Shown here piece after piece: positions 1,237-58,140 of a stretch of DNA of 58,141 bases. A model generated the notes under the pieces. The model did no database searches, was not told where the DNA came from, and saw nothing but the letters and a program-made list of their open reading frames with translations. The DNA lies in the IMG/VR virus record IMGVR_UViG_3300025168_000098, positions 1-58,141 of that record, one strand, 5' to 3'. The position numbers and the translations under genes were made by a program. This stretch comes from a virus. The stretch's first letter is position 1. Each line of letters opens with the position of its first letter.

Positions 1237-2066
1237 CCACCTTTACCAAACCTATCATTCTTCCTGAATGGAACAGGCTTGCTGTAAGCCGTTCTTAGGG
1301 TCAATAAATAGTTCTTCAAAACCCTAGATAATCCAGCATAATTCCAAGATTCAGATTGCATCTTTATTCCTGTGATTAAGTCATCTGTATTTACATGATT
1401 ATATTCAGCCATTTGAATCAGACTTGAGGGGTGATTATTCATTTTATTTCCATGATATTTTCCTGATAATATCGCTTGATTCTCTTCGACTCCAAACAAA
1501 TCTTTTGTTCTAACTTCTTCTTCACATCTAAATCCATTTGGAGATGTCAGAAGATTGAGTTCAGCACTTCTCCAAGTTGGAGATATCTCAGAAATATATT
1601 TCAGATGTTCATCATCAAAATCATTTGATTTGGATTTCAAAAAACCGAACAGATTTTCCTTAGAAGGTCTGTTGACTTCAACAAGTAAACTAATCTTCCT
1701 GAGATTGAACGGAACAGATTTCAGATTGATGACAATTATTATCATTGGAGATAATTTCTGACTTGAAAAATCTGATACTATTTTCCAATGTTTTTTTGAT
1801 AGAGAATCAGCATCATCAACAATCGCTATTCTCGATAATCCTGAAAGACTCAATGCTGTTACTTTTGAGAAAGGATATTTACCATTCAAGTCCGATATGA
1901 ATTGGGGTTCAAAACCTGAGTTTGTTGAGTATGATTTTGACAGGGTAGTTTTTCCAACTCCTGATTCTCCATGAATGATTATCGTGTTCATGTTAGATTT
2001 GTTTTTCATTGACCAATTATCTAACAAAGATTTCATTGGTTGATAGATTGATTTTATTCCAATCAT
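1227..2066 (-). CDS. AAA+ ATPase, probably clamp-loader large-subunit-like (RFC-L-like)
   Basis: 279 aa. Walker A GESGVGKTT at 33-41, Walker B IAIVDDAD at 80-87, then a short lid. The order of motifs and the segment NRPSKENLFGFLK resemble archaeal RFC large subunits, but the protein is much shorter than a cellular RFC-L (usually 400-500 aa) and lacks an obvious PIP box. The RFC small subunit at 8358-9383 and PCNA at 12261-13058 supply the likely partners. Its start overlaps the end of the upstream 63-aa gene by ATGA, so the two are translationally coupled. A DnaC/DnaA-like loader is the main alternative. Confidence 0.55.
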   Translation of the reverse strand: MIGIKSIYQPMKSLLDNWSMKNKSNMNTIIIHGESGVGKTTLSKSYSTNSGFEPQFISDLNGKYPFSKVTALSLSGLSRIAIVDDADSLSKKHWKIVSDFSSQKLSPMIIIVINLKSVPFNLRKISLLVEVNRPSKENLFGFLKSKSNDFDDEHLKYISEISPTWRSAELNLLTSPNGFRCEEEVRTKDLFGVEENQAILSGKYHGNKMNNHPSSLIQMAEYNHVNTDDLITGIKMQSESWNYAGLSRVLKNYLLTLRTAYSKPVPFRKNDRFGKGGKV

Positions 2067-2254
2067 TTCCAGCCCATCAATGTAGTCTGATTTCTTAGAT
2101 GTTCATTTGTCATATTTGGATTTCTGATATCTGTTGCTTGTGATATTGCAGATAGTATAGATTCCAATTTTTCAATCCTGAGATTTAATTGTTGGATTTG
2201 TAATCTCATATCTTCAATTTCGTGCTGTGCATTTCTCTCATTCTGATTACTCAT
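2063..2254 (-). CDS. Small coiled-coil protein
   Basis: 63 aa starting MSNQNER. The start is set by the promoter element at 2271-2287, 17 nt upstream; the longer frame would run through that promoter. The middle (about residues 12-35) has heptad-like Leu/Ile spacing, so a short coiled coil is likely. Its end overlaps the RFC-L-like gene by 4 nt. Function unknown; a helper of the clamp-loader-like ATPase is possible only by position. Confidence 0.7.
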   Translation of the reverse strand: MSNQNERNAQHEIEDMRLQIQQLNLRIEKLESILSAISQATDIRNPNMTNEHLRNQTTLMGWK

Positions 2255-2270
2255 ATCAAAGCCTGATATT

Positions 2271-2287
2271 CCCACCTTTATCAATAT
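2271..2287 (-). promoter_or_regulatory. Class A promoter (TATA + GGTGGG) for 2254
   Basis: Minus strand ATATTGATAAAGGTGGG; ATG lies 16 nt after the last G. No Shine-Dalgarno site between, consistent with a leaderless transcript. Confidence 0.7.
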
Positions 2288-2302
2288 CGTAGTTAGAAGC
2301 AT

Positions 2303-2480
2303 TTACGAATCTGACTATTCTGATACCAATAGAGACAATCTGAGCCATTTGTTAGATTGTCAGGACTCAGATTACCACCGATATCAAAACGTGGCCTTAG
2401 AATCTCTCTATCGGCATATGTTGAGGCCAACATCTAATATTCTAACTCACGTCAGAAAAAAATTGAGAAAAAATCAGATA
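2303..2480. other. Intergenic, one palindromic site
   Basis: About 180 bp between the 2254 promoter and the terminator at 2486. Holds a perfect 16-bp-framed copy of the dispersed palindrome at 2419-2432 and no convincing gene. Confidence 0.6.
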
Positions 2481-2485
2481 TTGAA

Positions 2486-2531
2486 AATAAAAAAAAGGGA
2501 GACAACCGAAGTTGCCCCCCAATTTTTTTTT
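2486..2531 (-). terminator. Hairpin terminator with TTCG loop and T8 tract
   Basis: Read on the minus strand: a GC-rich arm ending CAAC, loop TTCG, arm GTTGTCTCCC, then eight T and ATTTTC. It lies just after the CobS-like gene (stop at 2596). The plus strand also ends in a T run, so it could work both ways. Nearly identical elements occur at 24241 and 46735. Confidence 0.8.
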
Positions 2532-2595
2532 CGTCTGTTATTTTTCGCTTGATATCACATCCTTAATTTTTATTTTCTAATCTCCAATTTATTCC

Positions 2596-3840
2596 TTAAG
2601 CCAAATCCTCGATGTTTGCTCTTGCTAGGATTTTAACTTCTTCAACGTCATCAACGTCAAACAATGGGTAAACAACTGTATCAAGAGTTTGTTGCATATT
2701 GTAAACAGATAATGTCTCCATCATAGTTACAAGTGTTCTTGTTCCTAAGTCAGTTGGTTCTGAAAATGTCATTGATTCGTTTGCCTTTCTAACATTGCGA
2801 GCGAACTGAACAATTTCTGTTGCCGCATCTACATTGAAATTACTTGATTGTTCTTGGATAACTTGTATCTCTAAATCACGGCCAAGATAGTCGAAGTCTA
2901 ATGTGTGAGTAAACCTACTTCGTGTTGCATTGTTTAGTGGTGAAGTTCCAGCATAGTTTGGATTCATGGATGCTATAATTCTAAAGTCAGGATGAGCGTG
3001 AAGGACTTCTGCACCTGATGCACTTCCTTTCTGATTTATGACCATATGACCAGCATCTAAAACATCGTTTAATTGACTTAGAACTGCTGGCTTGATGAAG
3101 TTGATTTCATCAATGTAAAGAATGCATCCATGACGCATTGCTTTTGTTAATTGGCCGTCTACGAAATGTGTTTCAGTTCCGCCACTTGGGGTTGTTCTAA
3201 CTAGAAGCATTCCTTGAAGGTCATCCCATTCAACACCAACACCACCAACTATTCTGCAAATTGGTTGGCTGATAAGGCGACCAAACTCATAGATAGCCAT
3301 AGTTTTTCCACAGCCTGTTCCACCCTGAGTCAGCAAAGCCGATTTCATTTTATGACAGAAAGCCATAAACTCTAATTCTGAGCCAACTATACCTTGCTCA
3401 ACGTAGCCCTTTGCTACTGTTGGTATTAGTGCTTGAATATCTGCTGGATAAGCAGACGCATCTTTCTTAGCGATTCCGCAGAATACATTTGGTGATGGTG
3501 CAGATGTCATTCCTGATACAGTTGTAGTGATAGTTGGAGACATTGCTCTAGCCCCTCTAGGTATTGATGTAGTTCCGTTAATTGCCGCTTCGACTTGTTC
3601 ATCAGACCAAACATACTGTTGGCCGTTAATGTCTATTTTTTGTAGTCCAGCACCAGCAAGATTCTTTGCTGTAAAACAATGTGCTTTGAGAGAAGTTGGG
3701 TTTGGTATTCCACCATTTGCCGTGATACTATCGGCTATTTCAGCCAAATAGGTTTCACGGTCAACCCTACCGTTGTGGTCATCAACCACATCGAACATTC
3801 TTTGTTGTGTCTCCGTCATATTTTCATTTCGTGTTGTCAT
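2596..3840 (-). CDS. CobS/MoxR-like AAA+ ATPase
   Basis: 414 aa. Walker A GGTGCGKT at 173-180, Walker B ILYIDEI at 240-246, sensor-1-like IIASMNPN near 288-295. This is the MoxR/CobS pattern, seen also in cyanophages, where it pairs with a CobT-like protein; the CobT-like gene sits at 1-1170. ATG at 3840 (MTTRNEN) is chosen because GGAGATGA lies just upstream, the Shine-Dalgarno form reused at 7494, 7690, 24586 and 24712; the longer frame would translate the leader and promoter. Probable role: ATP-driven remodelling of a protein complex with the CobT-like partner. Confidence 0.85.
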   Translation of the reverse strand: MTTRNENMTETQQRMFDVVDDHNGRVDRETYLAEIADSITANGGIPNPTSLKAHCFTAKNLAGAGLQKIDINGQQYVWSDEQVEAAINGTTSIPRGARAMSPTITTTVSGMTSAPSPNVFCGIAKKDASAYPADIQALIPTVAKGYVEQGIVGSELEFMAFCHKMKSALLTQGGTGCGKTMAIYEFGRLISQPICRIVGGVGVEWDDLQGMLLVRTTPSGGTETHFVDGQLTKAMRHGCILYIDEINFIKPAVLSQLNDVLDAGHMVINQKGSASGAEVLHAHPDFRIIASMNPNYAGTSPLNNATRSRFTHTLDFDYLGRDLEIQVIQEQSSNFNVDAATEIVQFARNVRKANESMTFSEPTDLGTRTLVTMMETLSVYNMQQTLDTVVYPLFDVDDVEEVKILARANIEDLA

Positions 3841-3953
3841 TTTTTTCATCTCCATTTTTTTCAATTTGCCCTTCTCGGCGACTCTTCGGACTGAGTGTTC
3901 GCTATTATACTCTTCCATGTGGTCTAACAAAATAGTCAGACTTCAATGGATTT
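3841..3953 (-). promoter_or_regulatory. Class C promoter and structured leader of the CobS-like gene
   Basis: Minus strand AAGTCTGACTA, ACCACATGGAA and TATAATAGCG, then an untranslated leader beginning GCGAACACTC followed by TCCGAAG and GCCGA, then GGAGATGA and the start. The leader blocks recur at 57985-58016. Confidence 0.6.
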
Positions 3954-4420: not shown

Positions 4421-7071
4421 GTGAACCACTCATCTAAACCAACTTGATTCATTCCAACAAGTGAAGTTTTCCAAGAAGTTCTGAATGCACCCAAAATACC
4501 TTCCCAAGATTTCGATTTTGTGAAGTGTTTGTTGAACGATTCTTCCCTGTTGACTTCAACACCAAAAGACTCAGGAGTTTCCCCCCATTCGATTGCGACA
4601 ATTTTGTTTGCTGGAAGATTCCCATTTTTTGTCGAAGATGCATTGAACAAAACGGGCTTGTCTCCAATGTCAAAATTAGTTCCAATATTTTTGTTAGACC
4701 ATAGCCCTGCTTTGTGAGCCTGAGTTCCGGTCTTTTTCATTCCCATCGGCTGACCAAAATCTATACTCGGTGTTTTCTCGACATCCATCAAATCAGAATG
4801 GATTTCTCTTAACAAATTATTAAGTTCAGATTTGTTGCATCCTTGAAGTATAGAATCAAAAACTTTCAACTGTGCATCTTTGACAATCTTGGGTGCAGAT
4901 GACCTTCTAATCTCGACCCCCCTGAATCCATGTTTACCATTGAAATCTCGATACGCATATCTCTTTTTTACACCCCAAGAAAAGAATCTTTCATAGTGTG
5001 CATCAGGCTTCACAAAAAAGAACTCATTCTTCTCAACACCCAATGTCTCCTGAACAAATCTATCGTAGGAATTATTCAACATTATACACAACATATTTGC
5101 TATCGAAATCACATCATCTTTTGTGAAGTCTCTAACTGCATTCTGAGCCTCATCGTGATTGGTTATTGCTACCTTACAGGAATCAGTATCTTGACCTATG
5201 ACATGGAATGATAATTTGATTCCTTCTGCATCTCCAATATCTTCTGTAAAGGGTTCAATACCCAAATCAGAAAACCAAAGATTTGTTGCTTCAATTAAAT
5301 CCTTATTCCATTGATTATGTATTCTCGCAATTTCTGTAATATCTGACCCCAATTCAGGCAATGCTAATCTGAATGGCCTTCGTTTTGTTTTCTCAGTTTC
5401 ACCTGAATAAAGAACTCCATACCAACTATTCATACTCTCCTTCATTACACGCTGACGTTGATTCAATCGGTTGCCTAATTCTTCATCACCATTTTCATAT
5501 GCTTCTCGCATTAATGCCTGTGTTTCTTTTCTAAGAATAGCAAGATTACGAAGAACAGAAGGCATGATTCCTTCTCTATCTCTTCGATAAATCCGACCTG
5601 CTGGCGTAGTAGTAATTGGGAATGGAAATCCATTAGGATAATCTGCTGGATTAACAAGAGTATCAGGACTTCCGTTTGTAGTAATAATCACCGATGGATA
5701 TTCCATTGAATTATCAACTTCAAAGGCATTCTGATAGACTCCAATTGGATTCTCCATGACGAATCCACCTAACTGTATTCCACCTGTTGTTCTTCGCTGT
5801 CTGACAACTTCAACAGAAGGCATAATAATATTCTTTTGAAACAACAAATGCCCCATCATATCTTCGACCAACATCATGTTAGAGTTTGCTTTTCTCATAA
5901 CTGAATTATGGAATGCAGTTTTTGTCAGGTAAAATGGAACAAGATTTAGTTGGTTCATACATCTCTCAACACATACATTATCCCATATGTTATAGACAGC
6001 CAACATCATTGGGTCTTTCTCCATTAATTCTGTAATTCTTGTTCGTGGAACTTTACCATATCCGAGAACAGAACCAGCCATCCAAGCAAGTGAACCTGAA
6101 CCTGTTGTTGCCGCCGCACCTTGAACCTGTTCTGCATATGCAATTTTAGAATCAAATAGTCTTTGTTTTTTGAGCGACCAATATAGATTCGGATAACGAT
6201 GATGAACAGGAACTTTACCAGCATATCTTCTATCCATTTCTTTTCTCATTACTCGACATCTATTTCTCAAATATGGTATATCATATCCGATAATGTGTTG
6301 ACCACCAAGTAAGTCTCTATCTAAATCTTCTAATCTTTTCTTGAACCACCAAAGTAAGGCCGCTTCATTTGTATCTTCATCCATATGAGAAAAGGATTCG
6401 ACTAAGACCTTCTCAGGGTCAAGTGGGGGAATTGGACTAGAATGCTCAACAACGCTCTCTAACGCCTTCCCTGACCCCAAAAATCGCCTAACTTGGTGTT
6501 GGCTAGTCGGAGAAGTAGTTCCAACTTCGTGAATACCCGTTACACTATCAACAAATGCAATACTCACAACTCTTTCAGGGGCATTATCAACATCAAGTGA
6601 ATCTGCTGTTTCAATATCAAACCAAACTATGTCGAGATTGAATCTTGTTGGGTCAGTTTCACTTGGTCGAATGTGAATCGGTCTGAGATTTCTTCCCGAT
6701 GCTAATTCATCCATGTTGATGTCAACAACCGAAGTCCATCCGTAAATCCACCGAACCAAAGAACTCCAAGAAACATCTGCTGAATAATGTGGATAAAAGT
6801 AATCTCTAATCTCTCTAATATCTGACGGCTTCTCAACTCTAATCTCATACAATGGAACGCCTGTTATCGAAGTCTTATCTGAGAGTTTTGTTGACGTAAC
6901 AAAATCAGGAAGATTTGGAATATCATCAGGATTTTTTTCTGACCAAAATCTTGGAACACAACCCTCAACTGTTACCTTTTTTGTTGACCCATCCAAAGCC
7001 TTCAATCTAAGATGAGTTAGAAGATTATTTGTTTCGTCATATTCAATTGATACAATAAGAAAAGATTCCAT
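4417..7071 (-). CDS. polB: Family B DNA polymerase
   Basis: 884 aa with all signature motifs. Exonuclease: Exo I D152-E154 (FDIET), Exo II around GYD at 262-264, Exo III YNIWD at 360-364. Polymerase: motif A D453-Y458-P459, motif B K544 to NSWYG at 548-552, motif C DTDS at 628-631, then KKRY. It should be the replicative, proofreading polymerase, working with PCNA and RFC encoded nearby. Motif A reads DNSMEYP rather than the usual DxxSLYP, and motif C has GQDTDS rather than YGDTDS. No intein or uracil-sensing N-terminal domain was recognised. First gene of a class A promoter at 7089; leaderless. Confidence 0.97.
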   Translation of the reverse strand: MESFLIVSIEYDETNNLLTHLRLKALDGSTKKVTVEGCVPRFWSEKNPDDIPNLPDFVTSTKLSDKTSITGVPLYEIRVEKPSDIREIRDYFYPHYSADVSWSSLVRWIYGWTSVVDINMDELASGRNLRPIHIRPSETDPTRFNLDIVWFDIETADSLDVDNAPERVVSIAFVDSVTGIHEVGTTSPTSQHQVRRFLGSGKALESVVEHSSPIPPLDPEKVLVESFSHMDEDTNEAALLWWFKKRLEDLDRDLLGGQHIIGYDIPYLRNRCRVMRKEMDRRYAGKVPVHHRYPNLYWSLKKQRLFDSKIAYAEQVQGAAATTGSGSLAWMAGSVLGYGKVPRTRITELMEKDPMMLAVYNIWDNVCVERCMNQLNLVPFYLTKTAFHNSVMRKANSNMMLVEDMMGHLLFQKNIIMPSVEVVRQRRTTGGIQLGGFVMENPIGVYQNAFEVDNSMEYPSVIITTNGSPDTLVNPADYPNGFPFPITTTPAGRIYRRDREGIMPSVLRNLAILRKETQALMREAYENGDEELGNRLNQRQRVMKESMNSWYGVLYSGETEKTKRRPFRLALPELGSDITEIARIHNQWNKDLIEATNLWFSDLGIEPFTEDIGDAEGIKLSFHVIGQDTDSCKVAITNHDEAQNAVRDFTKDDVISIANMLCIMLNNSYDRFVQETLGVEKNEFFFVKPDAHYERFFSWGVKKRYAYRDFNGKHGFRGVEIRRSSAPKIVKDAQLKVFDSILQGCNKSELNNLLREIHSDLMDVEKTPSIDFGQPMGMKKTGTQAHKAGLWSNKNIGTNFDIGDKPVLFNASSTKNGNLPANKIVAIEWGETPESFGVEVNREESFNKHFTKSKSWEGILGAFRTSWKTSLVGMNQVGLDEWFT

Positions 7072-8133: not shown

Positions 8134-8361
8134 TCAGTCGGATTCTTCCAACAACTCCGTGTTGAGTTCAACATCGAGAGAATCCAACATAATCAGAATC
8201 CGTTGAAGATAAACTGACAAATCCATAGCCTCTTCCATAGCATGATTTATCCATTCTTTCAAAGTCAAATCTGTTCGTTCCATTGTTGTGTTATATTTGT
8301 TCAAACCCAACTCGGCTCTTTGACGTATTTTTTCTATTACTTTTTCTTCAATTTCGCTCAT
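8134..8361 (-). CDS. MazG-superfamily-like small protein
   Basis: 75 aa. The segment GLNKYNTTMER followed by LKEWINHAMEEAMDLSVYL matches a widespread phage family with the EExxDxxxYL helix pattern of MazG-like NTP pyrophosphohydrolases. It is shorter than a full MazG domain and lacks a visible first ExxE pair, so catalytic activity is doubtful. ATG overlaps the RFC stop (ATGA), so it is coupled to the clamp loader. Confidence 0.5.
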   Translation of the reverse strand: MSEIEEKVIEKIRQRAELGLNKYNTTMERTDLTLKEWINHAMEEAMDLSVYLQRILIMLDSLDVELNTELLEESD

Positions 8362-9383
8362 ACAGTTATTCTCCTTAGAAATGTCTTGACGGTTAGTAAA
8401 TCATCAGATGAAATTGAACACCAATAAATTGCTTCGCCCATACTTTTGTAAATTGATTTTCTTAATTTATTTGGAACATTAGAATCTTCTTCAACAGTCA
8501 GCAGAAATGCATCTAAAATCTCAACTCCTGACATACCTTTTTCGCCTAAGTTTTCAACCATAGAATCTAGTCGCTGGTGAATCTTGACGTATTTGGAATC
8601 TTCAACACCTAACTTGTTGGATTCAACAGCCAATCCTAGCATTTGTCGAAGTGATTTCTGAGATATTTCGTTAGTGATTTCATTGACATCTTCAATTTCA
8701 ACTCGGATTGGTATGCGAGTAACAGAAAAAAGCAGATTTAATGCACTTCTCATAGAGCCATTTGAAGCCATTCCTACGGCCTCTAGTGCATTCGGTGCTA
8801 TATCGAGATGTTCTTGCTTTACAATAGCCTCTAAAGCCCTGCAAATAGCATCAGATGGGATAGGCTTGAACCTTGAACCTGAGAAAGCACATCTATCCCT
8901 GATTGGTGCAATAACTTTGTGAGGATAATTACAAGATAAAATAAATCTAGTTTGCTTGGAATATTTTTCCATGATTCTTCTCAACGCTGATTGAGCATCA
9001 GAAGTAAGATTATCACATTCATCGAGAAATACAACATTGAATGGAATCAACAAATCTTTTCCATCCTTAGTTTGATATGTTCCAATTGTTCCTCTTCTAG
9101 CGAAGTCTTTGACCGTAGTTCTGATGACATTGATGCTTCTCTCATCACTTGCATTTAACTCGATAAAATTGGCCTTCCAATCTTCACCAAACATAGATTT
9201 CATCAGGGCTACTGCAACTGATGTTTTTCCTGTTCCAGCCTTGCCTGAAAACATCATATGAGGAAATGCACCATCATCACCATTCTCATGTAATTTCTCA
9301 ACTACATACCTGAGTCTTTTCACTATATGTTCCTGACCAACAATATCATTAAGATTATTTGGGCGATATTTTTCAGACCACAT
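8358..9383 (-). CDS. rfcS: Replication factor C small subunit (clamp loader)
   Basis: 341 aa, normal length. N-terminal WSEKYRPNN box, Walker A GKAGTGKT at 47-54, box ELNASDERSINVIR near 75-88, Walker B FLDECD at 119-124, sensor 1 LSCNY at 149-153, and RDRC at 162-165 in place of the SRC arginine finger. It should load PCNA for PolB. Leaderless start 18 nt from the class A element at 9401. Confidence 0.95.
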   Translation of the reverse strand: MWSEKYRPNNLNDIVGQEHIVKRLRYVVEKLHENGDDGAFPHMMFSGKAGTGKTSVAVALMKSMFGEDWKANFIELNASDERSINVIRTTVKDFARRGTIGTYQTKDGKDLLIPFNVVFLDECDNLTSDAQSALRRIMEKYSKQTRFILSCNYPHKVIAPIRDRCAFSGSRFKPIPSDAICRALEAIVKQEHLDIAPNALEAVGMASNGSMRSALNLLFSVTRIPIRVEIEDVNEITNEISQKSLRQMLGLAVESNKLGVEDSKYVKIHQRLDSMVENLGEKGMSGVEILDAFLLTVEEDSNVPNKLRKSIYKSMGEAIYWCSISSDDLLTVKTFLRRITV

Positions 9384-9993: not shown

Positions 9994-10857
9994 CTAAGCC
10001 GAATCATTTTTTTCTCCCTGTAAAACTGAGAGTATTCTGTTTGCTGTGTTGAGGCCAACACCTTCGATTGTCGAGAGTTCTTCCGGTGTCGTTTGACAAA
10101 GTGAAATTATTGTTGGATATTTTTTGGTAATCCTTCTTCTTAATTTTGAACCGATTTTTGGTAATCCTTCAATCAGACAATCTCGATATTCATTTACAGT
10201 TGGAGATTTTGGTCGAGGCACATACAGTCTTGGATTATCATCTTCTATTTTCTGAACTATCTTGTGAGTCAGTAATGAGGCATCGTGTCTATTGTCAATA
10301 AAAATTGGTGGATATCCAACAGCACATAGAGATGCTATGAAAGAGATTAGAGTTTGCTCACTAACACCCCTATCCCTTGCACCTAATCTAATCGCATCGT
10401 AAGACTTTGAAACAATTAGGTAGGAGTATTCAGCCTCTTCTCTCATAGCACCCAACTGCTTGAGCCTACGGCCATCAAACAGGGAAGGAATAAAGTCATC
10501 TTCCTTACGTTCTATACTGACCTTTCTTGTTGATACATCACCCTTACCTGTATCAAGACTAACTATCTCAAAACCAAGTTCAGAAAGATAGGTCAGCATT
10601 TCTTTGTGTTCTCTATGGTCAACCCGTCTATGTCGAGAAAACAACTCATTCAAAATCATCTGATTGACAAGTGGAAAAATCTCATCTGAACTTGGAGAAA
10701 TTGACAATGATTGCGTGTTGGCTTCAACAAGTTCCACAGTTAAGAATCGAGAGAATCCCAGCAGTTGACCAAGTGAAGCAGAATCGAGGAAATCAATTAG
10801 TTCAGAACGGTCATCAAGTAATCTTCCATATCTTGTCTTACGTTGATTTGTTTTCAT
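9994..10857 (-). CDS. ERCC4/XPF-family structure-specific nuclease
   Basis: 287 aa starting MKTNQRKTRY. ERCC4 core: GD at 106-107 and ERK at 116-118 followed by DF and DGRRL. A tandem helix-hairpin-helix follows near the C-terminus (EGLPKIGSKL and TIEGVGLNTANRIL). No helicase domain, so it is closer to crenarchaeal XPF or Mus81-like nucleases than to Hef. Expected to cut branched DNA at replication forks. The catalytic loop is one residue shorter than the usual ERKxxxD. No PIP box was noticed. Start chosen at the first ATG inside the primase end (20-nt overlap). Confidence 0.88.
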   Translation of the reverse strand: MKTNQRKTRYGRLLDDRSELIDFLDSASLGQLLGFSRFLTVELVEANTQSLSISPSSDEIFPLVNQMILNELFSRHRRVDHREHKEMLTYLSELGFEIVSLDTGKGDVSTRKVSIERKEDDFIPSLFDGRRLKQLGAMREEAEYSYLIVSKSYDAIRLGARDRGVSEQTLISFIASLCAVGYPPIFIDNRHDASLLTHKIVQKIEDDNPRLYVPRPKSPTVNEYRDCLIEGLPKIGSKLRRRITKKYPTIISLCQTTPEELSTIEGVGLNTANRILSVLQGEKNDSA

Positions 10858-12028
10858 CCCGTTTCGACCATTTGCGTTTAATCTGACGGGGTTGATAATC
10901 CATGCCCCCCATATCCTTGAATCGAGGACAAATATCGCCCACACAACAGCCATTCGCTTTGAGCGTAGTGCAGTTTGGAAAGATGTAATATTTTGGGTCA
11001 TCGAAGATAGTTGACATCTGATACAGCCGATGTTCAGTATTGTGTAAATCTACATATCCAATTTCAGTTCCTAACTGCATCCATATCTTTTCAAAATCAT
11101 GCAAACCCATTCCCAATATTTTAGCAAACAAAGCAGAATAAACTCTCGGTTTATGTGGTGGATTTCTTCTCTTTAATTCATTGACAACTCCCATACATCT
11201 TCTATCTAAGGATGCAAGAAATCGAGATGCTTCCGCATCGGTTTGAGCAATGTTGAAGTCAACATTTACAACAGGCCGAAGCAATGATTCAGGAGAATGT
11301 AATTTTACTCCGAGTTCCTTTACAAAATCAATCAGTTTCAATTTCCTTCCATTGATTTTAGGCAACTCATATTTTGGGCGATACGACATCTTTTCAATGT
11401 CCTCATGTGATAGTGTATCGAGAAGTTCCACATCAACAGGCATTGCGTGTCGGCCACTACTATTTCCATGTCTATCTATGTGCTTAGAAAAAGGAAATCT
11501 GCACAGTCTTTTGGGGTCGCCTGTTGTCTGTTCATCAAGTGTATTCAGACCTATCGTTTTACGCAAATGGTCTTGTGTTTGATGCACGATTTGTTTCAAG
11601 GCTTCACCACTTCCATCCTTGAAGTCAAACTTGAATCTTGTAGCCTCATGGACTATGAATAAATGATATCCTTTACTGCCACTATATTGAACCCAATGAG
11701 CCACATTCATTTCTCTCAAAAACGAAGATAATCTTTGAGCATCTGCAAATGCATTTTCAGGTTTTGATGAATGGTCAAAGTCGAAGAAAGTGAGTTCGTA
11801 AACAATTGTTTTTGGAGATTGTTTATTGCCAACTTCATATTGTAAATTATCATATCCACCTGTGCTTATGAAACAAGATTTATTTCCATTCCATTTTGAA
11901 TAAGACCGATAGATATCTTCCGTAGCAAAGACAAAGTTTTGACGTGGATTTCCTATGGCTCTTGGATAGTGTTTGAATCCAAAATGATTAGCCATTTCAT
12001 CAATGTTGTCAACATCAAATAAACTCAT
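10838..12028 (-). CDS. priSL: Fused archaeo-eukaryotic primase (PriS catalytic + PriL C-terminal domain)
   Basis: 396 aa. N-terminal half: catalytic DFD at 83-85, SGSKGYH at 116-122, DPKRLCR at 171-177, the AEP/PriS triad. C-terminal half resembles the PriL iron-sulphur domain: C278, a helical region with Pro/Arg at 290-300, YQMSTIF near 336, then C353, C361/C362 and C367. In most archaea these are two proteins; a fusion is known from Nanoarchaeum. It should make primers for PolB. ATG at 12028 follows GAGTGATT, a ribosome site also used at 51780. Confidence 0.88.
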   Translation of the reverse strand: MSLFDVDNIDEMANHFGFKHYPRAIGNPRQNFVFATEDIYRSYSKWNGNKSCFISTGGYDNLQYEVGNKQSPKTIVYELTFFDFDHSSKPENAFADAQRLSSFLREMNVAHWVQYSGSKGYHLFIVHEATRFKFDFKDGSGEALKQIVHQTQDHLRKTIGLNTLDEQTTGDPKRLCRFPFSKHIDRHGNSSGRHAMPVDVELLDTLSHEDIEKMSYRPKYELPKINGRKLKLIDFVKELGVKLHSPESLLRPVVNVDFNIAQTDAEASRFLASLDRRCMGVVNELKRRNPPHKPRVYSALFAKILGMGLHDFEKIWMQLGTEIGYVDLHNTEHRLYQMSTIFDDPKYYIFPNCTTLKANGCCVGDICPRFKDMGGMDYQPRQIKRKWSKRDENKST

Positions 12029-13092: not shown

Positions 13093-13202
13093 AGTCATTT
13101 TGTGAAGTTATGGATTTTCGGGCTTGAATCAATTGAGATGTTGACCTCAACATGGAATGTTTGAAAAAAACTGCAAAAAAAACTGCGGAAAAAATCGAGA
13201 AA

Positions 13203-21176: not shown

Positions 21177-21201
21177 ACGTGTTGAGGCCAACATCAAAGT
21201 T

Positions 21202-46815: not shown

Positions 46816-48333
46816 GTGAGCGATAGTATTACTGCTAAATTAACAGCAACACAAGCAAGAGAAATCGCAATTTATCCTGACCGTTGGGCTCAGTTTTTCA
46901 GAACAATAAACGGCCAAGAGTTTAGCCTACATGAAAGACCTTATCTGATAGATATCTATCGGCAATTTCAACCTAATATGAAGTCAGATAAAACCAAGAT
47001 AATTGTTCTCAAATGTAGTAGGAAAGTCGAGAAAACTGAAACCATCTGTAATCTACTATTGTATGGGCTTCTGAACATACCATATTTCAATGCAGTTTAT
47101 ACCGCCCCAAGACAGCCTCAAGTAAGCAGATTTGTTGATGAAAGATTCAACGGTGCTTTGATGTCATCTATCAATGGTGGATGCCTGATGAAACCAAGAG
47201 TAAAAACTTCTGTAAGTCATCAAACTTTTGATGTTGGTGCAAGGTCTTTGAATCATCTTTATGCTTACTCAAATTGGGGTGATGCACATGGTCTGTTGGG
47301 TATCGAAGCAGACATGGTATGTATTGACGAATATCAAGATTCAGGAACAGATGTTTTACCGATGCTAGTTGAGATGTTAGCATTGTCAGAATACAAGTGG
47401 GTTTTGATTAGTGGAACTGCAAGAGAACAGGGTTCAGACTTTTGGAAATTATGGGAGAAATCCAGCAAGGGAGAATGGAATGGAGAAGCATGGGTTCATG
47501 GAGATTCAGAAGAAAATATTATTGGATATCATATGAGTCAAAAAATGCATCCTCAGATTTCTGATGAAGATATCAAAATGAAGAAATCAACTTACACTCC
47601 GAGAAGATATGCGAATGAAGTTCTTGGAGAGTTTTTCGCTGGTTCAACGAAACCAATAACTTTCGATGAAGCATTGAAGGCTGTTGACACCAACAGGAAG
47701 ATTGTGAGATTTGTTGATGCACCGGAAGAAACTGTGATGGGTGTTGATTGGGGGAATCAGACAACAGTTGTGATTATGAGGAAAAATGGTGAAATCGTAA
47801 ATGCTCTAAAATTAGATTCAAGGGCTGACTTTGAAAATGATGAAGTTGAGGAAATCAAGAATCTCATAGAACGCTATAATTGCACCCAAGTTGTATGTGA
47901 TATAGGGTATGGGGCAAGACAGGTAAAAGAACTCCAAAGAGAATACGGAGATATGGTAAAATCATGCTATTATTCAAGTCGCCCCCTGACTCCATTCCAA
48001 TACAAGAAAAGAGACAATAATCGAAATCTAATTTACATGGTTGTTGTTGATAGAACTACTTACATCGAAGCAACAATTGAAGCAATCAAAAATGAAGAGA
48101 TTTCACTTCCATACAAAACAACAGATTTGGAATGGGTTTTGCATGAATGGTGTTCTTTGAACTCATCAGCAGAATCAGACGAAAAAAACCAAAGGCCAAT
48201 ATTATCTCAAAGTAAAACAAAGTTTGGTCGAGATGGAGATGACCACGCATTCCATGCTTTGCTCTATGCGAGACTAGCAATTGGATTCGATGAAGATAGT
48301 GGATTGCCCCAAATTAGAGTGTTTGGGGAATAA
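46816..48333 (+). CDS. terL: Terminase large subunit
   Basis: 505 aa from a GTG start with a TATA-like ACCATATAG about 25-33 nt upstream (leaderless). ATPase: Walker A-like CSRKVEKT at 67-74, Walker B VCIDE at 169-173. Nuclease: D312 (GVDWG), D363 (VCDIG) and a C-terminal DDHAFHA. The P-loop has Glu where Gly of GKT is expected. Only late gene on the plus strand. No small terminase subunit was recognised. Confidence 0.92.
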   Translation: MSDSITAKLTATQAREIAIYPDRWAQFFRTINGQEFSLHERPYLIDIYRQFQPNMKSDKTKIIVLKCSRKVEKTETICNLLLYGLLNIPYFNAVYTAPRQPQVSRFVDERFNGALMSSINGGCLMKPRVKTSVSHQTFDVGARSLNHLYAYSNWGDAHGLLGIEADMVCIDEYQDSGTDVLPMLVEMLALSEYKWVLISGTAREQGSDFWKLWEKSSKGEWNGEAWVHGDSEENIIGYHMSQKMHPQISDEDIKMKKSTYTPRRYANEVLGEFFAGSTKPITFDEALKAVDTNRKIVRFVDAPEETVMGVDWGNQTTVVIMRKNGEIVNALKLDSRADFENDEVEEIKNLIERYNCTQVVCDIGYGARQVKELQREYGDMVKSCYYSSRPLTPFQYKKRDNNRNLIYMVVVDRTTYIEATIEAIKNEEISLPYKTTDLEWVLHEWCSLNSSAESDEKNQRPILSQSKTKFGRDGDDHAFHALLYARLAIGFDEDSGLPQIRVFGE

Positions 48334-48571: not shown

Positions 48572-48585
48572 TGTTGGACTCAACA

Positions 48586-48867: not shown

Positions 48868-48970
48868 AATCATCGAAGGAGAAATTACGGTTAATTACTG
48901 TTGATGTCAACAGGTATATCTGAGATGACAGAAAAAGATTTTTGTGAATTGGAGAATGTAGATGACGGAT

Positions 48971-49189: not shown

Positions 49190-51345
49190 TCTACTAATTC
49201 CCCTGCTTTGTTTTGGAAGGAAACTTTAGTATCTTCATCCAGCCAATTATCTGCTTGGTCTTTGTTGTCGAAAGTCATAATGACTGAGTTAGTTTCTAGG
49301 CATACAACAGCCCATGAACCGCCTTCTAATTGCATAACAACTCGGCTTACTTCATTTTCCATTTCTGTCTCAATTAACTTTGCTGATTTCTTACCATGAG
49401 GCAGACCTGCATTCTTAGCACAGGTTGCACCATATCCATGAGTCATTGAAACATCTGTTGAAAGGTGCTTGGAACAGAAGCAACAGTAGCCACTTTTTCG
49501 ACCTAATCTACGGATAGTTGAGATTGGGTCTGCACGAAGGGATTGAAGAACAATCCAAGTATCGTCAGGAAGCCCCATTGAAGGGGTCATACTGCCGTTG
49601 AAACGGTTTACATTACCTCTTGCTAGGGTTGCACCTGTTTGGATGAATCTTCGGCTATCCTGAGATGATGCTCTTTCTGCTTCTGTAAACTGTAATTCTG
49701 CCGCTTCGGTTGTTCTTGTTTTTTTGTCAAAGAAGTTTAATGGGCGAATCACTAATTCTCTTTGGAACGCATCAAAAGTTTCAACGCCTTTTGTTCCGTA
49801 TTTTGGAACGCATGGTGCTGGTGCTTCTTTAGTGTTGGAGTCAACAACCAAAGTGATGATTGGGTGTTTCAAAGGTTTGCCGTTTTCTGAACCTTCAAAC
49901 TGATTGAATAGTTCAACAACTGCATCCCATCCATCTTGCACTTTAGTAGTGTCAGGATTAGATGCAATTCCTTTCTTGGTTAATTCCCCAACCCAATACA
50001 TTTGCTTGTCAGAAAGACGGCCATATTTATTCCATCCACCAATTAAATCAATTGCGAAGTTTTTGTCTCGACCTGTAAGACTTTCATGGACTTCTTTTAG
50101 AGCATCAATTTTTGGATTTCCACCACGACTTGCTTGAGGCGTATTTAGTTCTTTGACGTAATACATCTGAGAAGAAGAAAGTTTTCCATTTGCTAAAAAT
50201 TGACTAACTAAAGATTTAGCGAAACTAATACTTCTGTTAGGAACTGTTCCCATGTCTAAAGCATCTTGAAGTGCCGCAATCTCAGGATGAGCATGACGTG
50301 TCTCAACATCAGTTTCAACAACTGAATTATTTTTAGAATCAGGCAATGCTGAAAATTGTTTTTCTGAGATGAAACTTAGACCTGTTGCATTGCAGTATTC
50401 ACAGGCACTACCTTTGTTGTATATATTGCCCGAAGTCCTACCGACTCCTTTACAGCATTGACAGGCCACTAGAACAGCACCCTTTAGTGAATTACCCCAA
50501 TTTGCAGATAGTTGTTTTACATATGGTTTTTTGTTGCTTCCATTCTTGAGTTGTTTAACAGAAGGCTTGGTGCTATTTGTTGTTATTATATCGAAAGATG
50601 CTGGACGTGATAAAATACGATTAAGGTTAGGTAGTTTGAATGGTTTGTCGTCATATTGACCACCTGAGACTACTTTCATACCAACAATAGAATGGAACAA
50701 AATACCATCCTCACAAACATAATAATATTCTCCATTTGAATCAGTTTTTCTTTGAACAAGTATAGACCTTCTCAGCCTATCATATCTTGCTGATATTGTT
50801 CCATTGATGGTGTTGCTCATACCATAGTAATTCAAAGGGATGTGAATAGTCTCAGGAGAAGAACCATCTTTGAATCCACATATCAGATTTCTTGTCTCAT
50901 ATCCATTACCCATATTTTTTTCTCCATAGATTCCAACATCGTGAGATTTGGCCGCAACATTCCAACTTCTCGGCATGAGAACTTTGGCTGATTGCCTATC
51001 TCCATTCTTGACTAATTCAAGTAAATCTTTCTGCGTAGTATGAGCCAAAGAAATATTCCTTCCCCACCAATCAATCGGTGAATCATATTTCTTGACACCA
51101 AAATTATTTTCACGGACTTGACCACCAAACCGACTGTATGCAATTGGTATGTGGCTTATATCCTCAGTTTGTATCAATGCGTAGTGTTGATGCTCGTCAT
51201 CGTTTGTTGGCTGTTTAACAACAAGTCCTGTTGATTGTAATTTCATTTTTATTCGATTATATCTTTGAATTGGTGTTAAGTCATGTAAGAAATCTGTTGA
51301 AGAAATCCTACTTTTTGGGTCATTTAGTGTGTTTTCTGTTATCAT
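49186..51345 (-). CDS. Large zinc-finger protein with DnaJ-like and DUF6011-like fingers
   Basis: 719 aa, largest unknown gene in the window. Residues about 305-335: CQCCKGVG...CEYCNATG, a DnaJ-type cysteine-rich pair. Residues about 640-665: YCCFCSKHLSTDVSMTHGYGATC, a DUF6011-like treble clef. In between, two helical repeats around SSSQMYYVKEL and SDKQMYWVGEL. N-terminal 250 aa beta-rich. Leadered start. Likely a nucleic-acid-handling scaffold; role unknown. Confidence 0.65.
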   Translation of the reverse strand: MITENTLNDPKSRISSTDFLHDLTPIQRYNRIKMKLQSTGLVVKQPTNDDEHQHYALIQTEDISHIPIAYSRFGGQVRENNFGVKKYDSPIDWWGRNISLAHTTQKDLLELVKNGDRQSAKVLMPRSWNVAAKSHDVGIYGEKNMGNGYETRNLICGFKDGSSPETIHIPLNYYGMSNTINGTISARYDRLRRSILVQRKTDSNGEYYYVCEDGILFHSIVGMKVVSGGQYDDKPFKLPNLNRILSRPASFDIITTNSTKPSVKQLKNGSNKKPYVKQLSANWGNSLKGAVLVACQCCKGVGRTSGNIYNKGSACEYCNATGLSFISEKQFSALPDSKNNSVVETDVETRHAHPEIAALQDALDMGTVPNRSISFAKSLVSQFLANGKLSSSQMYYVKELNTPQASRGGNPKIDALKEVHESLTGRDKNFAIDLIGGWNKYGRLSDKQMYWVGELTKKGIASNPDTTKVQDGWDAVVELFNQFEGSENGKPLKHPIITLVVDSNTKEAPAPCVPKYGTKGVETFDAFQRELVIRPLNFFDKKTRTTEAAELQFTEAERASSQDSRRFIQTGATLARGNVNRFNGSMTPSMGLPDDTWIVLQSLRADPISTIRRLGRKSGYCCFCSKHLSTDVSMTHGYGATCAKNAGLPHGKKSAKLIETEMENEVSRVVMQLEGGSWAVVCLETNSVIMTFDNKDQADNWLDEDTKVSFQNKAGELVE

Positions 51346-52401: not shown

Positions 52402-52502
52402 ATACTTTTCTGACAATGAATATGCTTCTGACCAAACTTCGTCAAACAATTGGAACGGTGGGATTATTGAAATCAGATTGAATGTTGGCTTCAACATCAT
52501 CC

Positions 52503-53241: not shown

Positions 53242-53510
53242 TTCATTAATGTAATTCTTCTAGCATTATAATCTGAAACTGCATTGTAATCCACATTCCA
53301 TTTCTTGACATCATCTGTTGGATTCAACAATCTGACATTCTGAAAATAAACATCAAATCCCAATGAAGAAAATAACTCTTTGAAATAAGTAATTTCCATT
53401 CCTGTATTCTGCATTCTCATAATGACTTTTCGATTCCCCAAATTATCTGTTGCGAGATGTAGTTCTCGACCTTCTTCTGCTTCGACCAGCAAATACGATA
53501 CTTCGACCAT
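53235..53510 (-). CDS. Hypothetical protein
   Basis: 91 aa starting MVEVSYLLVE. ATAAAAAA lies 23-30 nt upstream, so a leaderless start is likely; the longer frame begins with TTG inside a palindromic site. Alternating beta and alpha, ferredoxin-like in outline. No motif. Confidence 0.6.
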   Translation of the reverse strand: MVEVSYLLVEAEEGRELHLATDNLGNRKVIMRMQNTGMEITYFKELFSSLGFDVYFQNVRLLNPTDDVKKWNVDYNAVSDYNARRITLMNP

Positions 53511-53720
53511 GACTATTCGGAATGTATTGGGGTTTTTTATTCCGCCTATTTCCGAGCCGATTAACCATATGAACTCAAGACTATATAAACTGTGCAAGAT
53601 TTCCAAAAACCATTTTTTCGATGTTGGCTTCAACACGGAGTTTTTGCTGGTGATTACAATATCGCTATTGGTCAGGAAGCAGTTTGAGATTACAACCGAA
53701 TGTCAGAATATCGCTATCGG
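53511..53720. other. Intergenic 210 bp with palindrome and direct repeat
   Basis: Holds a palindromic site (53622-53635) and a 22-bp direct repeat (53658 and 53707). No convincing ORF. Confidence 0.6.
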
Positions 53721-53728
53721 TCAGGAAG
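53658..53728. repeat. 22-bp direct repeat, two copies
   Basis: AATATCGCTAT(T/C)GGTCAGGAAG at 53658-53679 and 53707-53728, 49 bp apart, one difference. Iteron-like; the second copy reaches into the stop codon of the coiled-coil gene. Confidence 0.75.
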
Positions 53729-54894: not shown

Positions 54895-54931
54895 TTTTTC
54901 TCACTACTCCCTGTTGGCCTCAACACCTGAT

Positions 54932-56655: not shown

Positions 56656-57002
56656 TCTTCCACCCCTGCTTTATCCATCTCTTCTTTCAATCTCACTAAC
56701 ATAATCTCTATACCATCCTCATCAATGAAATTGGATTCAAGAAAACCATAAAATCCATTGTTGCTGTTCAATAATATCATATCTGCAATCCACCTTCTTT
56801 TCATGAAAGATAATCTGTCAAATACGAACCAAGAATCTTTTGTAAAAAGATGGCTCATTTTTCGGAAACAATACTTGTCTAATATCGGATAATCAGGCCG
56901 CCAACCACGCTGTTGTGCGACCCAACCACTTGTATCAAGTCCGATTATCATATTGCTTTCCATTTCTTGTATTTCATCATATATTTTTTCTCCATAACTC
57001 AT
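56652..57002 (-). CDS. Hypothetical protein
   Basis: 116 aa starting MSYGEKIYDE, ATGA overlap with the upstream gene. Mixed alpha/beta with Trp-rich middle; no motif. The start follows GAGGTGGAAGA. Confidence 0.6.
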   Translation of the reverse strand: MSYGEKIYDEIQEMESNMIIGLDTSGWVAQQRGWRPDYPILDKYCFRKMSHLFTKDSWFVFDRLSFMKRRWIADMILLNSNNGFYGFLESNFIDEDGIEIMLVRLKEEMDKAGVEE

Positions 57003-57220
57003 TCTTCCACCTCTTCTTTCCATGCTTCATTCTCCACAAGTTTCCGTGCAGTTTTCACTCGTCTTTCATGTTCTTCAAGTTCTGCTTTAGCATGATGTAA
57101 ACAGCCGTTCACAGTATCGTAGATTTGTTGTAATTCAGTAACACGTATCTGTGCCATTATACGACTATCTTCCCTTATTCTCCATTCTCTCTTCATTGAT
57201 TCCTCTATATTTTCATTCAT
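56999..57220 (-). CDS. Coiled-coil small protein
   Basis: 73 aa, nearly all charged helix (LQQIYDTVNGCLHHAKAELEE). Directly after the zinc microgene stop. Confidence 0.6.
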   Translation of the reverse strand: MNENIEESMKREWRIREDSRIMAQIRVTELQQIYDTVNGCLHHAKAELEEHERRVKTARKLVENEAWKEEVEE

Positions 57221-57343
57221 TTATTCATCACCTTCCATTTTTTCCCAACAAGTAGGGCAAATAACCCCACCATTTTGATAGCGAAAGATTTCACCATCTT
57301 TGAATACTCTTCTTCGGCACATAGTCATAATGCAGGGATTCAT
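57221..57343 (-). CDS. 40-aa zinc-finger microprotein
   Basis: MNPCIMTMCRRRVFKDGEIF then RYQNGGVICPTCWEKMEGDE. C4/C9 and CPTC make one treble-clef-like site. Start after GGGGTGGAAGC; TAA ATG junction with the next gene. Confidence 0.65.
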   Translation of the reverse strand: MNPCIMTMCRRRVFKDGEIFRYQNGGVICPTCWEKMEGDE

Positions 57344-57540
57344 GCTTCCACCCCACTATCATCATTAGGTTTTGGAAATCCAAAGTTGGCTCTAAGATAT
57401 TTAAGATGTGGAATCAAAGCCTCTTCTAAAATCAATAATTCATGTTTGTTCAATTTAACTAAGAAATGTAAATCAACATCTGTCGCTGTTTCTATACCCT
57501 TCGCTTGAAACGGGTTAAAAGTAAAATCCTTATTATTCAT
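57340..57540 (-). CDS. Hypothetical small protein
   Basis: 66 aa starting MNNKDFTFNP. Helix LNKHELLILEEALIPHL; no motif. ATGA overlaps on both sides. Confidence 0.6.
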   Translation of the reverse strand: MNNKDFTFNPFQAKGIETATDVDLHFLVKLNKHELLILEEALIPHLKYLRANFGFPKPNDDSGVEA

Positions 57541-57689
57541 GCTTCCACCCATCCTGTTGAAAGCGAATATACCATACCTGCTTCGTGATTCTTCCTACAT
57601 TCTTTTATTCCACAACAAAATGCTTGAACATATTGTTGTCCTCTATCATATCTGATTAATTGACAATAAGGGCATCTGTAACTACTCAT
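57537..57689 (-). CDS. 50-aa zinc-ribbon microprotein
   Basis: MSSYRCPYCQLIRYDRGQQY then CCGIKECRKNH: CPYC and CC/C/H give one or two zinc sites. Start after GGGGTGGAAGA; ATGA overlap downstream. Confidence 0.65.
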   Translation of the reverse strand: MSSYRCPYCQLIRYDRGQQYVQAFCCGIKECRKNHEAGMVYSLSTGWVEA

Positions 57690-57952
57690 TCTTCCACCCC
57701 GAACATATCACAAATACAATCAGGACATACTAAAATGTGGTTGTAAGTTTTAATTTGTCTGAAAACTTTCATAGATTTGGTAGAACTGTATGAACTTCCA
57801 CTATGGCAGAATGTAGCATATTGTAATACATCATATTTACAATGATGACAAGACACATAGATTCTATCTTTTTGAAATCTCTTTCTAGGTCTAAGATTCA
57901 TGTCTTTCTTTTCAGCAATTATATTCATATGTGGGTTGTGTTTATATTCCAT
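57686..57952 (-). CDS. Zinc-finger small protein
   Basis: 88 aa. CHHC near 35-38, C49, then CPDC near 76-79: probable zinc ribbon. First gene of the microprotein operon, after a structured leader. Confidence 0.6.
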   Translation of the reverse strand: MEYKHNPHMNIIAEKKDMNLRPRKRFQKDRIYVSCHHCKYDVLQYATFCHSGSSYSSTKSMKVFRQIKTYNHILVCPDCICDMFGVEE

Positions 57953-57960
57953 TTTTTCAT

Positions 57961-58035
57961 TTCTCCTTTATCTCCGCTATACGCTTCGGCAAGCCTTCGG
58001 ATAGAGTGTTCGCATATCAATGCTTTCATTTCTGA
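57961..58035 (-). promoter_or_regulatory. Promoter and structured leader of the microprotein operon
   Basis: Minus strand GCATTGATATGCG (TATA-like), then leader GCGAACACTC, TCCGAAG, GCCGA as in the CobS-like leader, and GGAGATAAAGGAG before the start. Confidence 0.55.
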
Positions 58036-58140
58036 TTATTTTCCTTTCTGATAGTCTCTAAGAAATCTTTTGTAATCTTCTGAAATATTTTTTTCCTGTT
58101 CAGGCTGGGCGATAGGGATATCAGATGTTGGCTTCAACAT
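58036..58140 (-). CDS. C-terminus of a gene running off the window, or 34-aa ORF
   Basis: Frame ends SEDYKRFLRDYQKGK then TAA. An ATG at 58138-58140 exists, but it lies in a palindromic site and reads MLKPTS, as the site does by chance elsewhere; so this is more likely the end of a longer gene. Confidence 0.45.
   Translation of the reverse strand: MLKPTSDIPIAQPEQEKNISEDYKRFLRDYQKGK

Follow-up and report, generated by a model that had tools for sequence, protein, structure and literature searches.

The stretch of DNA described here (the window) is the virus record IMGVR_UViG_3300025168_000098 over its whole length of 58,141 nucleotides. It encodes a family B DNA polymerase, an RFC-like clamp loader, a LigD-like primase domain, a PD-(D/E)XK nuclease and portal, capsid, protease, tape-measure and terminase proteins; a clamp is assigned at 12261-13058 by inspection of the sequence only. 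Gene calls are the longest non-overlapping open reading frames (ORFs), are approximate, and leave 16.5% of the window non-coding. Within the phages collection the polymerase is nearest to those of haloviruses such as HVTV-1 (24%). A tyrosine integrase is absent from 15 of 15 records, in a search that did not extend to serine integrases. The virus may belong to the order Magrovirales, which is marked by PolB, clamp, clamp loader and an archaeal primase, by the lack of an integrase and by kinship with tailed haloviruses; the ICTV profiles of two magrovirus families (PMC10768690, PMC12999244) describe lytic viruses that lack an integrase. From end to end of the window, at about one copy per two kilobases, run copies of a 14-bp palindromic site (dyad), TGTTGNNNNCAACA, which is the subject of this analysis.

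A dispersed 14-bp dyad

Thirty-two exact copies of TGTTGNNNNCAACA occur in the window, against a mean of 0.17 and a maximum of 2 in 100 dinucleotide shuffles. An earlier sequence-only reading of the same DNA had counted 31 exact and three near copies and had estimated well under one copy by chance. Its near copies and its chance estimate agree with our counts, its exact copies are corrected to 32, and the shuffled sequences stayed far from the count near 30 that it had named as speaking against the site. The arms are perfect inverted repeats in all 32 copies, and all 32 conform to TGTTGRNNYCAACA, for which the window holds three further matches with one mismatch and 25 with two. When the edges of the spacer are left free, seven one-mismatch sites stand against the 32 exact ones. 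The spacer is strictly 4 bp: this length alone is enriched among spacers of 0-30, the others giving 0-3 matches each. The longest site-free gap measures 4878 bp, below the chance mean of 6251.

Position 6 is a purine and position 9 a pyrimidine in 32 of 32 window sites, the pairs being A..T (12), G..T (16) and A..C (4), and never G..C. Pooled over the window and the relatives G002, G017 and G018 (G001, which is non-independent, G004, G013 and G025 being omitted), sites with G in both half-sites number 0 of 78, where independent halves would give 5.6 (P 0.004). Addition of G025, which has one G..C among 8 sites, gives 1 of 86 against 7.6 expected (P 0.004). Because this pairing is avoided, one strong half-site is apparently required, which would fit a dimer with an affinity threshold. 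The R...Y edges claimed earlier thus hold throughout the window but fail as a general rule, as 4 of 17 sites in G013 are not R..Y and those of G004 are mostly Y..R. An RNA hairpin was considered as an explanation and seems unlikely: G-U arm variants are rare in the one-mismatch list of the window, and the purine/pyrimidine rule is symmetric about the DNA dyad.

Sites within genes use two codon frames, 17 of 22 lying in coding-strand frame 2, five in frame 1 and none in frame 0, in which sites with A at position 6 would contain a TGA stop. The sequence-only reading had placed sites in all reading frames, which is correct for frames 1 and 2, with frame 2 dominant, and not for frame 0. It had also seen more sites between genes than their share, and this is borne out (10 of 32 against about 5 expected). 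Its statement that the 7 kb of tape-measure and giant tail genes are free of sites was mistaken: site 31448 lies inside the tape-measure gene (29936-32215), and sites 26444 and 26570 lie inside the giant tail gene (25275-29936).

Conservation and lineage-specific arms

In G001, a 64.9-kb relative that is about 92% identical around the sites, the alignment covers 30 of the 32 sites, and both arms are intact in 30 of 30. Over these pairs the centre carries 18 substitutions in 120 positions and the arms none in 300 (hand counts; Fisher P 6e-11). Edge changes in G001 preserve purine or pyrimidine, and at 54912 both edges changed together. When the site was masked during alignment, 29 sites mapped and 28 of them were intact, the 29th lying between genes where the alignment has gaps. 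The window motif occurs at 2 to 8.7 per 10 kb in the nearest relatives, L005-L011 (terminase at least 91% identical) and L085-L096, in contrast to the lack of enrichment in any relative that the sequence-only reading had named as refuting it. The motif is absent from L012-L014, even though terminase identity there is 90%, and elsewhere reaches at most 1 per locus.

An unprejudiced search for any over-represented gapped palindrome revealed different arms in other lineages, with the same 14-bp geometry. TGTCG-4-CGACA was found in L012-L014 and L098, TGTTC-4-GAACA in G004 (27 sites), TATTG-4-CAATA in G017, G013, G022, G010, G018, G019 and G016, TATCG-4-CGATA in G015 and TACTG-4-CAGTA in G025. The gapped-palindrome search also yielded CTATT-6-AATAG in G011, and TACG-6-CGTA occurs at 15 sites in G005, with 1.3 expected. 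The fourth arm base is T or C in G017 and G018, where half-sites are mixed and one-mismatch sites outnumber exact ones. For records longer than 80 kb the first 80,000 bases were used, and of the 63 listed proteins of G018 53 were taken. Collagen-like coding repeats (GGTCC, CCGG) head some palindrome lists and partly remain after damping, in which sites less than 100 bp apart were counted once. The G+C content of the lineages spans 0.38 to 0.56.

We summed all 1344 combinations of a three-base arm and a spacer over 25 records, six near-duplicate or short records having been removed beforehand. TAT-8-ATA ranked first (797 against 302 expected, z 28.5) and CTA-10-TAG second (375 against 137, z 20.4); the third-ranked combination reached z 9.6, and the spread of z over all combinations is 4.6. 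The two leading combinations are one outline of 14 bp, (C)TA....TA(G). In G007, G020 and G021 CTA-10-TAG is present and the TRY-8-RYA outline is in little excess (z about 1), and in the short records G008, G003, G026 and G009 the z of the latter is below 2. Capped expectation-maximisation (EM) gave repeat-like or weak profiles in G007, G021 and G008. Beside the family outline, G006 (L203-L206) carries an extra 18-bp dyad, TATAA-N8-TTATA, in 11 copies against 0.05 expected, and TATA-12-TATA in 26 against 0.96 expected.

The sister clade with TGTCG arms allows the change of arms to be followed at homologous places. In a codon-level ORF alignment nine window sites map ungapped to this clade; five of them (18517, 23591, 26570, 42496 and 47682) are TGTCG-N4-CGACA there, and the remaining four are not full sites. 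In the reverse direction, 14 sites of the TGTCG clade give ungapped rows, and 7 of these, at six distinct places, fall on TGTTG sites of the window or G001. A plain DNA alignment mapped 11 window sites, with six full switches and two that had one further mismatch, and an alignment with the site masked gave 4 of 8 switches. The switch is accompanied by amino-acid changes, N to D and L to S. Selection thus acts on the DNA, apparently overriding codons, and about half of the site places turn over while the density stays.

A protein motif was rejected as the source of the repeats: the arms persist in intergenic DNA and in two different codon frames, and the residues of the sister clade change with its own arms. 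The same evidence upholds the earlier view that the constraint is on DNA and not on protein, and the proposal that sites are kept at homologous places while codons diverge holds in G001, with 30 of 30 arm pairs, and in the TGTCG replacements. Drift in base composition is an unlikely cause of the change from TGTTG to TGTCG, because G004, at 56% G+C, retains the AT-rich TGTTC arms and because both arms change together. Since its spelling differs by lineage, the dyad is usable as a lineage marker with which to sort uncultured virus fragments.

Table 1. Dyad sites and selected genes of the window. Dyads are exact matches and carry no strand; their arms are intact in the G001 alignment unless the row says otherwise.
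Feature	Position	Strand	Remarks
dyad TGTTGACTTCAACA	1670..1683		
dyad TGTTGAGGCCAACA	2419..2432		
dyad TGTTGACTTCAACA	4548..4561		within DNA polymerase B gene
dyad TGTTGATGTCAACA	6714..6727		within DNA polymerase B gene
dyad TGTTGAGTTCAACA	8160..8173		
dyad TGTTGGATTCAACA	8615..8628		within clamp-loader gene
dyad TGTTGAGGCCAACA	10047..10060		
dyad TGTTGGCTTCAACA	10716..10729		
dyad TGTTGAAGTCAACA	11251..11264		
dyad TGTTGACCTCAACA	13139..13152		between 12261-13058 and 13203-13559
dyad TGTTGGCTTCAACA	15735..15748		sister clade L098: TATCGGCTTCGACA (unmasked DNA alignment)
dyad TGTTGGCATCAACA	18517..18530		sister clade: TGTCGGAATCGACA; amino acids VDANT to VDSDT
dyad TGTTGAGGCCAACA	21180..21193		between convergent genes
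dyad TGTTGAACTCAACA	23591..23604		sister clade: TGTCGAACTCGACA; amino acids VEFNS to VEFDR
dyad TGTTGAGGTCAACA	26444..26457		giant tail gene; no site there in sister clade
dyad TGTTGACTTCAACA	26570..26583		giant tail gene; sister clade: TGTCG arms; amino acids VEVNN to VEIDN
dyad TGTTGGACTCAACA	31448..31461		within tape-measure gene
dyad TGTTGGCTTCAACA	33824..33837		
dyad TGTTGAGTTCAACA	35604..35617		
dyad TGTTGACATCAACA	36085..36098		G001: no aligned counterpart; L085: identical
dyad TGTTGGTGTCAACA	40152..40165		sister-clade alignment gapped
dyad TGTTGGGTTCAACA	42496..42509		sister clade: TGTCGGCCTCGACA; amino acids VLNPT to VSRPT
dyad TGTTGGCTTCAACA	45479..45492		G003: TGTCGGTTTCGACA in the plain DNA alignment; masked and codon alignments do not give it
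dyad TGTTGACACCAACA	47682..47695		terminase gene; TGTCG arms in three sister-clade loci; amino acids VDTNR to VDTDR
dyad TGTTGGACTCAACA	48572..48585		intergenic; misaligned when site masked
dyad TGTTGATGTCAACA	48899..48912		upstream of 48586-48873
dyad TGTTGGAGTCAACA	49833..49846		L158: TATCGGACTCGACA in the plain DNA alignment; the codon alignment gives no full site
dyad TGTTGGCTTCAACA	52483..52496		
dyad TGTTGGATTCAACA	53316..53329		no site there in sister clade
dyad TGTTGGCTTCAACA	53622..53635		
dyad TGTTGGCCTCAACA	54912..54925		G001 centre ACTC: G..T to A..C
dyad TGTTGGCTTCAACA	58126..58139		record end; centre GCTT, but GTAT in otherwise near-identical L006/L160; G001 counterpart not found
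one-mismatch site TATTGATTCCAACA	16536..16549		
one-mismatch site TGTTGACATCAACG	17099..17112		
one-mismatch site TGTTGACACGAACA	22071..22084		
winged-helix protein, 118 aa, second-choice candidate binder	13203..13559	-	predicted fold (AF2 model)
AAA ATPase genes (AAA_5/MoxR-like, AAA)	1227..3930	-	in G001 the row leads on to CobT/VWA, zinc-ribbon and wHTH-RHH genes

Candidate binding proteins and host genomes

Profile scans of the window proteins detected no classical repressor family among the best 25 of 51 Pfam families from 58 proteins. ParB (PF02195) was detected in none of 15 records, which include fragments, by a search that was positive in 11 of 14 control genomes. The leading candidate for the binder is, we infer, a family of proteins that are about 97-212 aa long and start with a winged helix-turn-helix (wHTH), and most of which end in a ribbon-helix-helix (RHH)-like segment, ITVNLPEDCVEYIKAWRANGVAAGRAVEALIRADIE, a beta-strand followed by two helices as judged by pattern. 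We denote it wHTH-RHH. In G001 the gene lies at 56927-57499, beyond the left end of the window; 8 of 8 other records of at least 64 kb carry the family, as do 15 of 31 overall, the rest being the window and shorter records. The structure model of the G001 protein (pLDDT 80.8) matches winged helices of Cdt1, archaeal Orc1, Nur and IscR with Z up to 9.1, a middling value. Two helices are seen in the RHH part of the monomer model and the strand is not; a structure search that covered mostly residues 1-113 gave no fold match for this part. Members of the family in G004, G012 and G014 are too short for the RHH segment. Between G001 and L223, which has TGTCG arms, the protein differs at four positions in residues 46-94, all of them in the recognition helix (52-65), with the wing unchanged, and at eleven positions in residues 1-45. 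The changes in the recognition helix are at most suggestive of a role as binder.

The genes for the CobT/VWA, zinc-ribbon and wHTH-RHH proteins all lie beyond the left end of the window. In G001 the row occupies 53532-57499 (L143:13532-17499) as a CobT/VWA-like gene, a fast-evolving gene and the wHTH gene, and is preceded by homologs of the window AAA genes. The order of CobT/VWA, a very variable protein with a zinc-ribbon tail, and wHTH is kept in 12 of 13 records, the 13th, G007, ending first; G004, G012 and G014 have a small extra ORF in the row. What the fast-evolving proteins share is mainly this C-terminal tail, F-I-P-S-W-K-D-K-R ... C-x-x-C-N-G ... C-P-H-C. The G025 member of wHTH-RHH (L216:6594-7232) seemingly has, by eye, a second RHH-like segment at its C terminus.

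The sequence-only reading had named the possible winged-helix protein at 13203 as a candidate. Its predicted fold is indeed a winged helix, but its recognition helix is identical in lineages with TGTTG, TGTTC and TACTG arms, which makes it a weak candidate for specificity.

In G018 an N6_N4 DNA methylase-like gene (L212:7266-8456; E 9.6e-5, below the Pfam cut-off) directly follows wHTH-RHH, which brings in a methylation-linked iterated palindrome like cyanobacterial HIP1, where a viral methyltransferase, with repair or mutational bias, would let the dyad accumulate. HIPs are replaced by other palindromes in some lineages along with their cognate methyltransferase (PMC4390886). The methylase-like cluster is restricted to G018 and its near-duplicate G019, no DNA methyltransferase is among the best 25 of the 51 Pfam families of the window proteins, and one-mismatch sites are rare in the window. 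Type II methyltransferases are not known to read as many as ten fixed bases, which also counts against this explanation, and we hold it to be very unlikely.

Eighteen records share a conserved small HNH-like protein, which could point to nuclease, recombination or packaging sites, for example for concatemer cutting. This seems to us highly improbable: tens of spread cuts would presumably shatter the genome, the sites run over the entire window, and the HNH-like ORF of the window, with only 88 aa, is shorter than in relatives other than G001. That ORF (35581-35847) is without the N-terminal basic part of most relatives.

A host factor was another candidate of the sequence-only reading, which had also proposed a count in Poseidoniales genomes. 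The clamp-loader search of genome contigs yielded no Poseidoniales, so we sampled the phylum of L251 (a Methanomethylophilaceae record), which gave 389 genomes of Thermoplasmatota. A rhodopsin gene exceeds the cut-off in 83 of the 389, from which Poseidoniales are probably among them. None of the 389 is enriched in TGTTGRNNYCAACA, the maximum being 6 per genome. For the wider TRTYGRNNYCRAYA the highest count is 74, from a genome of 5 Mb, compared with 33 in the 58 kb of the window (568 per Mb). A terminase was not found in the same genomes, which is uninformative by itself. A palindrome score of 7 was reached by 40 of 67 virus pieces, a few of them through coding repeats, and by 0 of 30 cellular loci of at least 15 kb. 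That a host DNA-binding protein recognises the site, and that lineages differ through differing hosts, is therefore very improbable in our judgement, although arms that differ between lineages of such unlike G+C content could follow hosts, the host's own genome may be outside the sample and a host protein might have only a few sites in its own genome.

The haloviruses HVTV-1 and HRTV-25 (100 and 50 kb examined) have no dyads, score 4.9 and carry neither winged-helix family, with the clamp-loader control found in the same search. Two further observations concern gene content. The protein at window 9425-9913 is, by its sequence, probably the one behind a Zeta_toxin/AAA_33 match, and HVTV-1 has a gene annotated as zeta toxin as well. 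Some relatives have a GroEL-like protein, read by eye.

Proposed action of the sites and comparison with known systems

Location and spacing were analysed in the nine clearest lineages, with spacing p values not corrected for several tests. Genes longer than 2 kb carry 99 sites against 101.7 expected. In five of the nine genomes the sites are spaced more evenly than random placement would give (p<0.05), namely the window (p 0.02), G018, G017, G022 and G010. Within genes the 3' half is favoured (154 against 97), to which codon usage may contribute.

On balance we favour the view that the sites are genome-wide operators for a dimeric protein which the virus itself encodes and which organises or silences its genome. 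A sequence-specific dimer would occupy the whole genome at about one site per 1.3-2.6 kb, depending on lineage, with each subunit reading one half-site (TGTTGR in the window) across the fixed 4-bp centre; under an affinity threshold, two weak G-edged halves would almost never pair. Bound dimers would bridge or coat the genome, and compaction with quieting of transcription would be their most likely action. As lineages diverged, the preference of the protein would have changed, and the site set would have followed through selection on DNA. The binder would be, as leading candidate, the wHTH-RHH protein of G001. The sequence-only reading had likewise proposed a binding site for a dimeric protein; a two-fold dispersed site, kept at homologous places and enriched in relatives, agrees with it, and the dimeric binder we infer. 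Architecture is favoured over promoters because long genes carry their share of sites, because the spread is even in several genomes and because places turn over at constant density. More tentatively, and as a possibility we would rate as the less likely outcome, this may be a nucleoid system encoded by these marine tailed viruses of archaea as a group, in which a two-domain dimer acts on tens of dyads, its specificity has changed several times and dozens of sites have been rewritten each time despite the protein changes that this entails.

Several results weigh against an architectural dimer of this kind and against its leading candidate. Sites between genes number 83 against 55.9 expected over the nine genomes (1.5-fold), with G004 driving much of this; in G004 itself 19 of 31 sites are intergenic against 5.3 expected, and nine lie at most 150 bp upstream of genes against 1.9 expected, which looks regulatory. 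Four of the nine genomes (G002, G004, G025 and G013) show no significant evenness of spacing, and capped EM gave no sharp motif in G011, G012, G014, G024, G028 and G030. Compaction and repression are not separable by arm conservation alone. The RHH segment is assigned by resemblance alone (Pfam RHH_1 in 0 of 15 records, CopG at E 0.65), and it is missing in G004, although G004 has one of the clearest motifs. When protein distance was compared with motif distance, wHTH-RHH ranked first of 39 families, but the families had different lineage sets; on a common lineage set it ranked seventh of 15 (rho 0.46, partial 0.16), and the 13203 protein scored 0.02 and 0.09. Because equal lineage sets removed the top rank, covariation was not used to name the binder, and nothing ties any particular protein to the site.

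The location data also bear on a stoperator-like regulation, in which a viral repressor would block initiation and elongation at the same sites, with the same protein, as a temporal switch or in a carrier state. Beside the intergenic excess, 31 sites lie within 150 bp upstream of genes against 17.7 expected over the nine genomes; the concentration is strong in G004 only and weak in G010 (4 against 1.3) and G025 (4 against 1.6). Site length, number and lineage-specific consensus resemble the stoperators of cluster A mycobacteriophages (PMC6550527), and a crystallised cluster A repressor uses two DNA-binding domains (PMC9283540). On the other side, the sites are palindromic, whereas stoperators are asymmetric and keep one orientation relative to transcription. 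About half of the mapped sites do not recur at the same place in the sister clade, a tyrosine integrase is missing from 15 of 15 records, and the two magrovirus families are described as lytic (PMC12999244, PMC10768690). We consider this regulation rather unlikely as the purpose of the sites; architecture and stoperator-like repression differ in purpose more than in parts.

The architectural reading has a cellular analogue in matS, whose word is GTGAC-RNY-GTCAC and whose binder, MatP, contains a ribbon-helix-helix and organises DNA by bridging loci that are far apart. In E. coli 23 copies of this 13-bp site lie in the 800 kb of the Ter macrodomain and are bound by MatP (PMC3330122). By analogy, the present dyads may be short sites scattered over a DNA domain for one organising protein. 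Unlike matS, they are about 20 times denser, lie on a virus, vary in sequence by lineage and form a different word with a 4-bp centre. The search for the general RHH_1 family was negative in 15 records, and MatP itself was not searched.

Two other iterated elements are comparable. The SPBRE of SPbeta, a repeated 15-bp element, was first found computationally, and its binder MrpR was assigned about two decades later (PMC10516654); in contrast to this element of the promoter regions of a prophage, the present sites lie mostly within genes. The HIP1 and alternate HIPs of cyanobacteria are, like the dyad, highly repeated palindromes replaced by others in some lineages (PMC4390886). Unlike them, the dyad is long and bipartite and belongs to a virus genome, and no conserved methyltransferase has been found with it so far.

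There is a close likeness to cluster A mycobacteriophages such as L5 and Bxb1, which carry 20-30 stoperators of 13 bp with a subcluster-specific consensus for one viral repressor (PMC6550527). There as here, tens of sites run across a virus genome with a consensus specific to the lineage. The present sites differ in being palindromic and mostly inside genes, in lacking a tyrosine integrase (15 records) and, among the best 25 of 51 Pfam families, a known repressor, and in belonging to viruses of archaea whose group is described as lytic. Our literature searches on magroviruses with palindromes or repeats, on Poseidoniales viruses and on dispersed palindromic sites in archaeal viruses found no report of the site, its spelled-out sequence appears in none of the papers searched for it, and the words palindrome, motif and repressor are absent from the main text of PMC10160649 in a word search.

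Viruses thought to infect Poseidoniales are known only from metagenomes. If our reading is true, the dyads would be the first known hint that they regulate or pack their DNA across the whole genome, and many sites changing in step would offer a natural experiment in the co-evolution of a DNA-binding protein and its whole site set. Dispersed virus-genome sites with a lineage-specific consensus are already known from the published accounts of cluster A, as is, from SPbeta, a repeated element whose repressor was found later. What is new is that the sites are palindromic, lie for the most part within genes and belong to supposedly lytic viruses of archaea, and that they differ between lineages throughout this virus group, with a traceable rewriting of codons.

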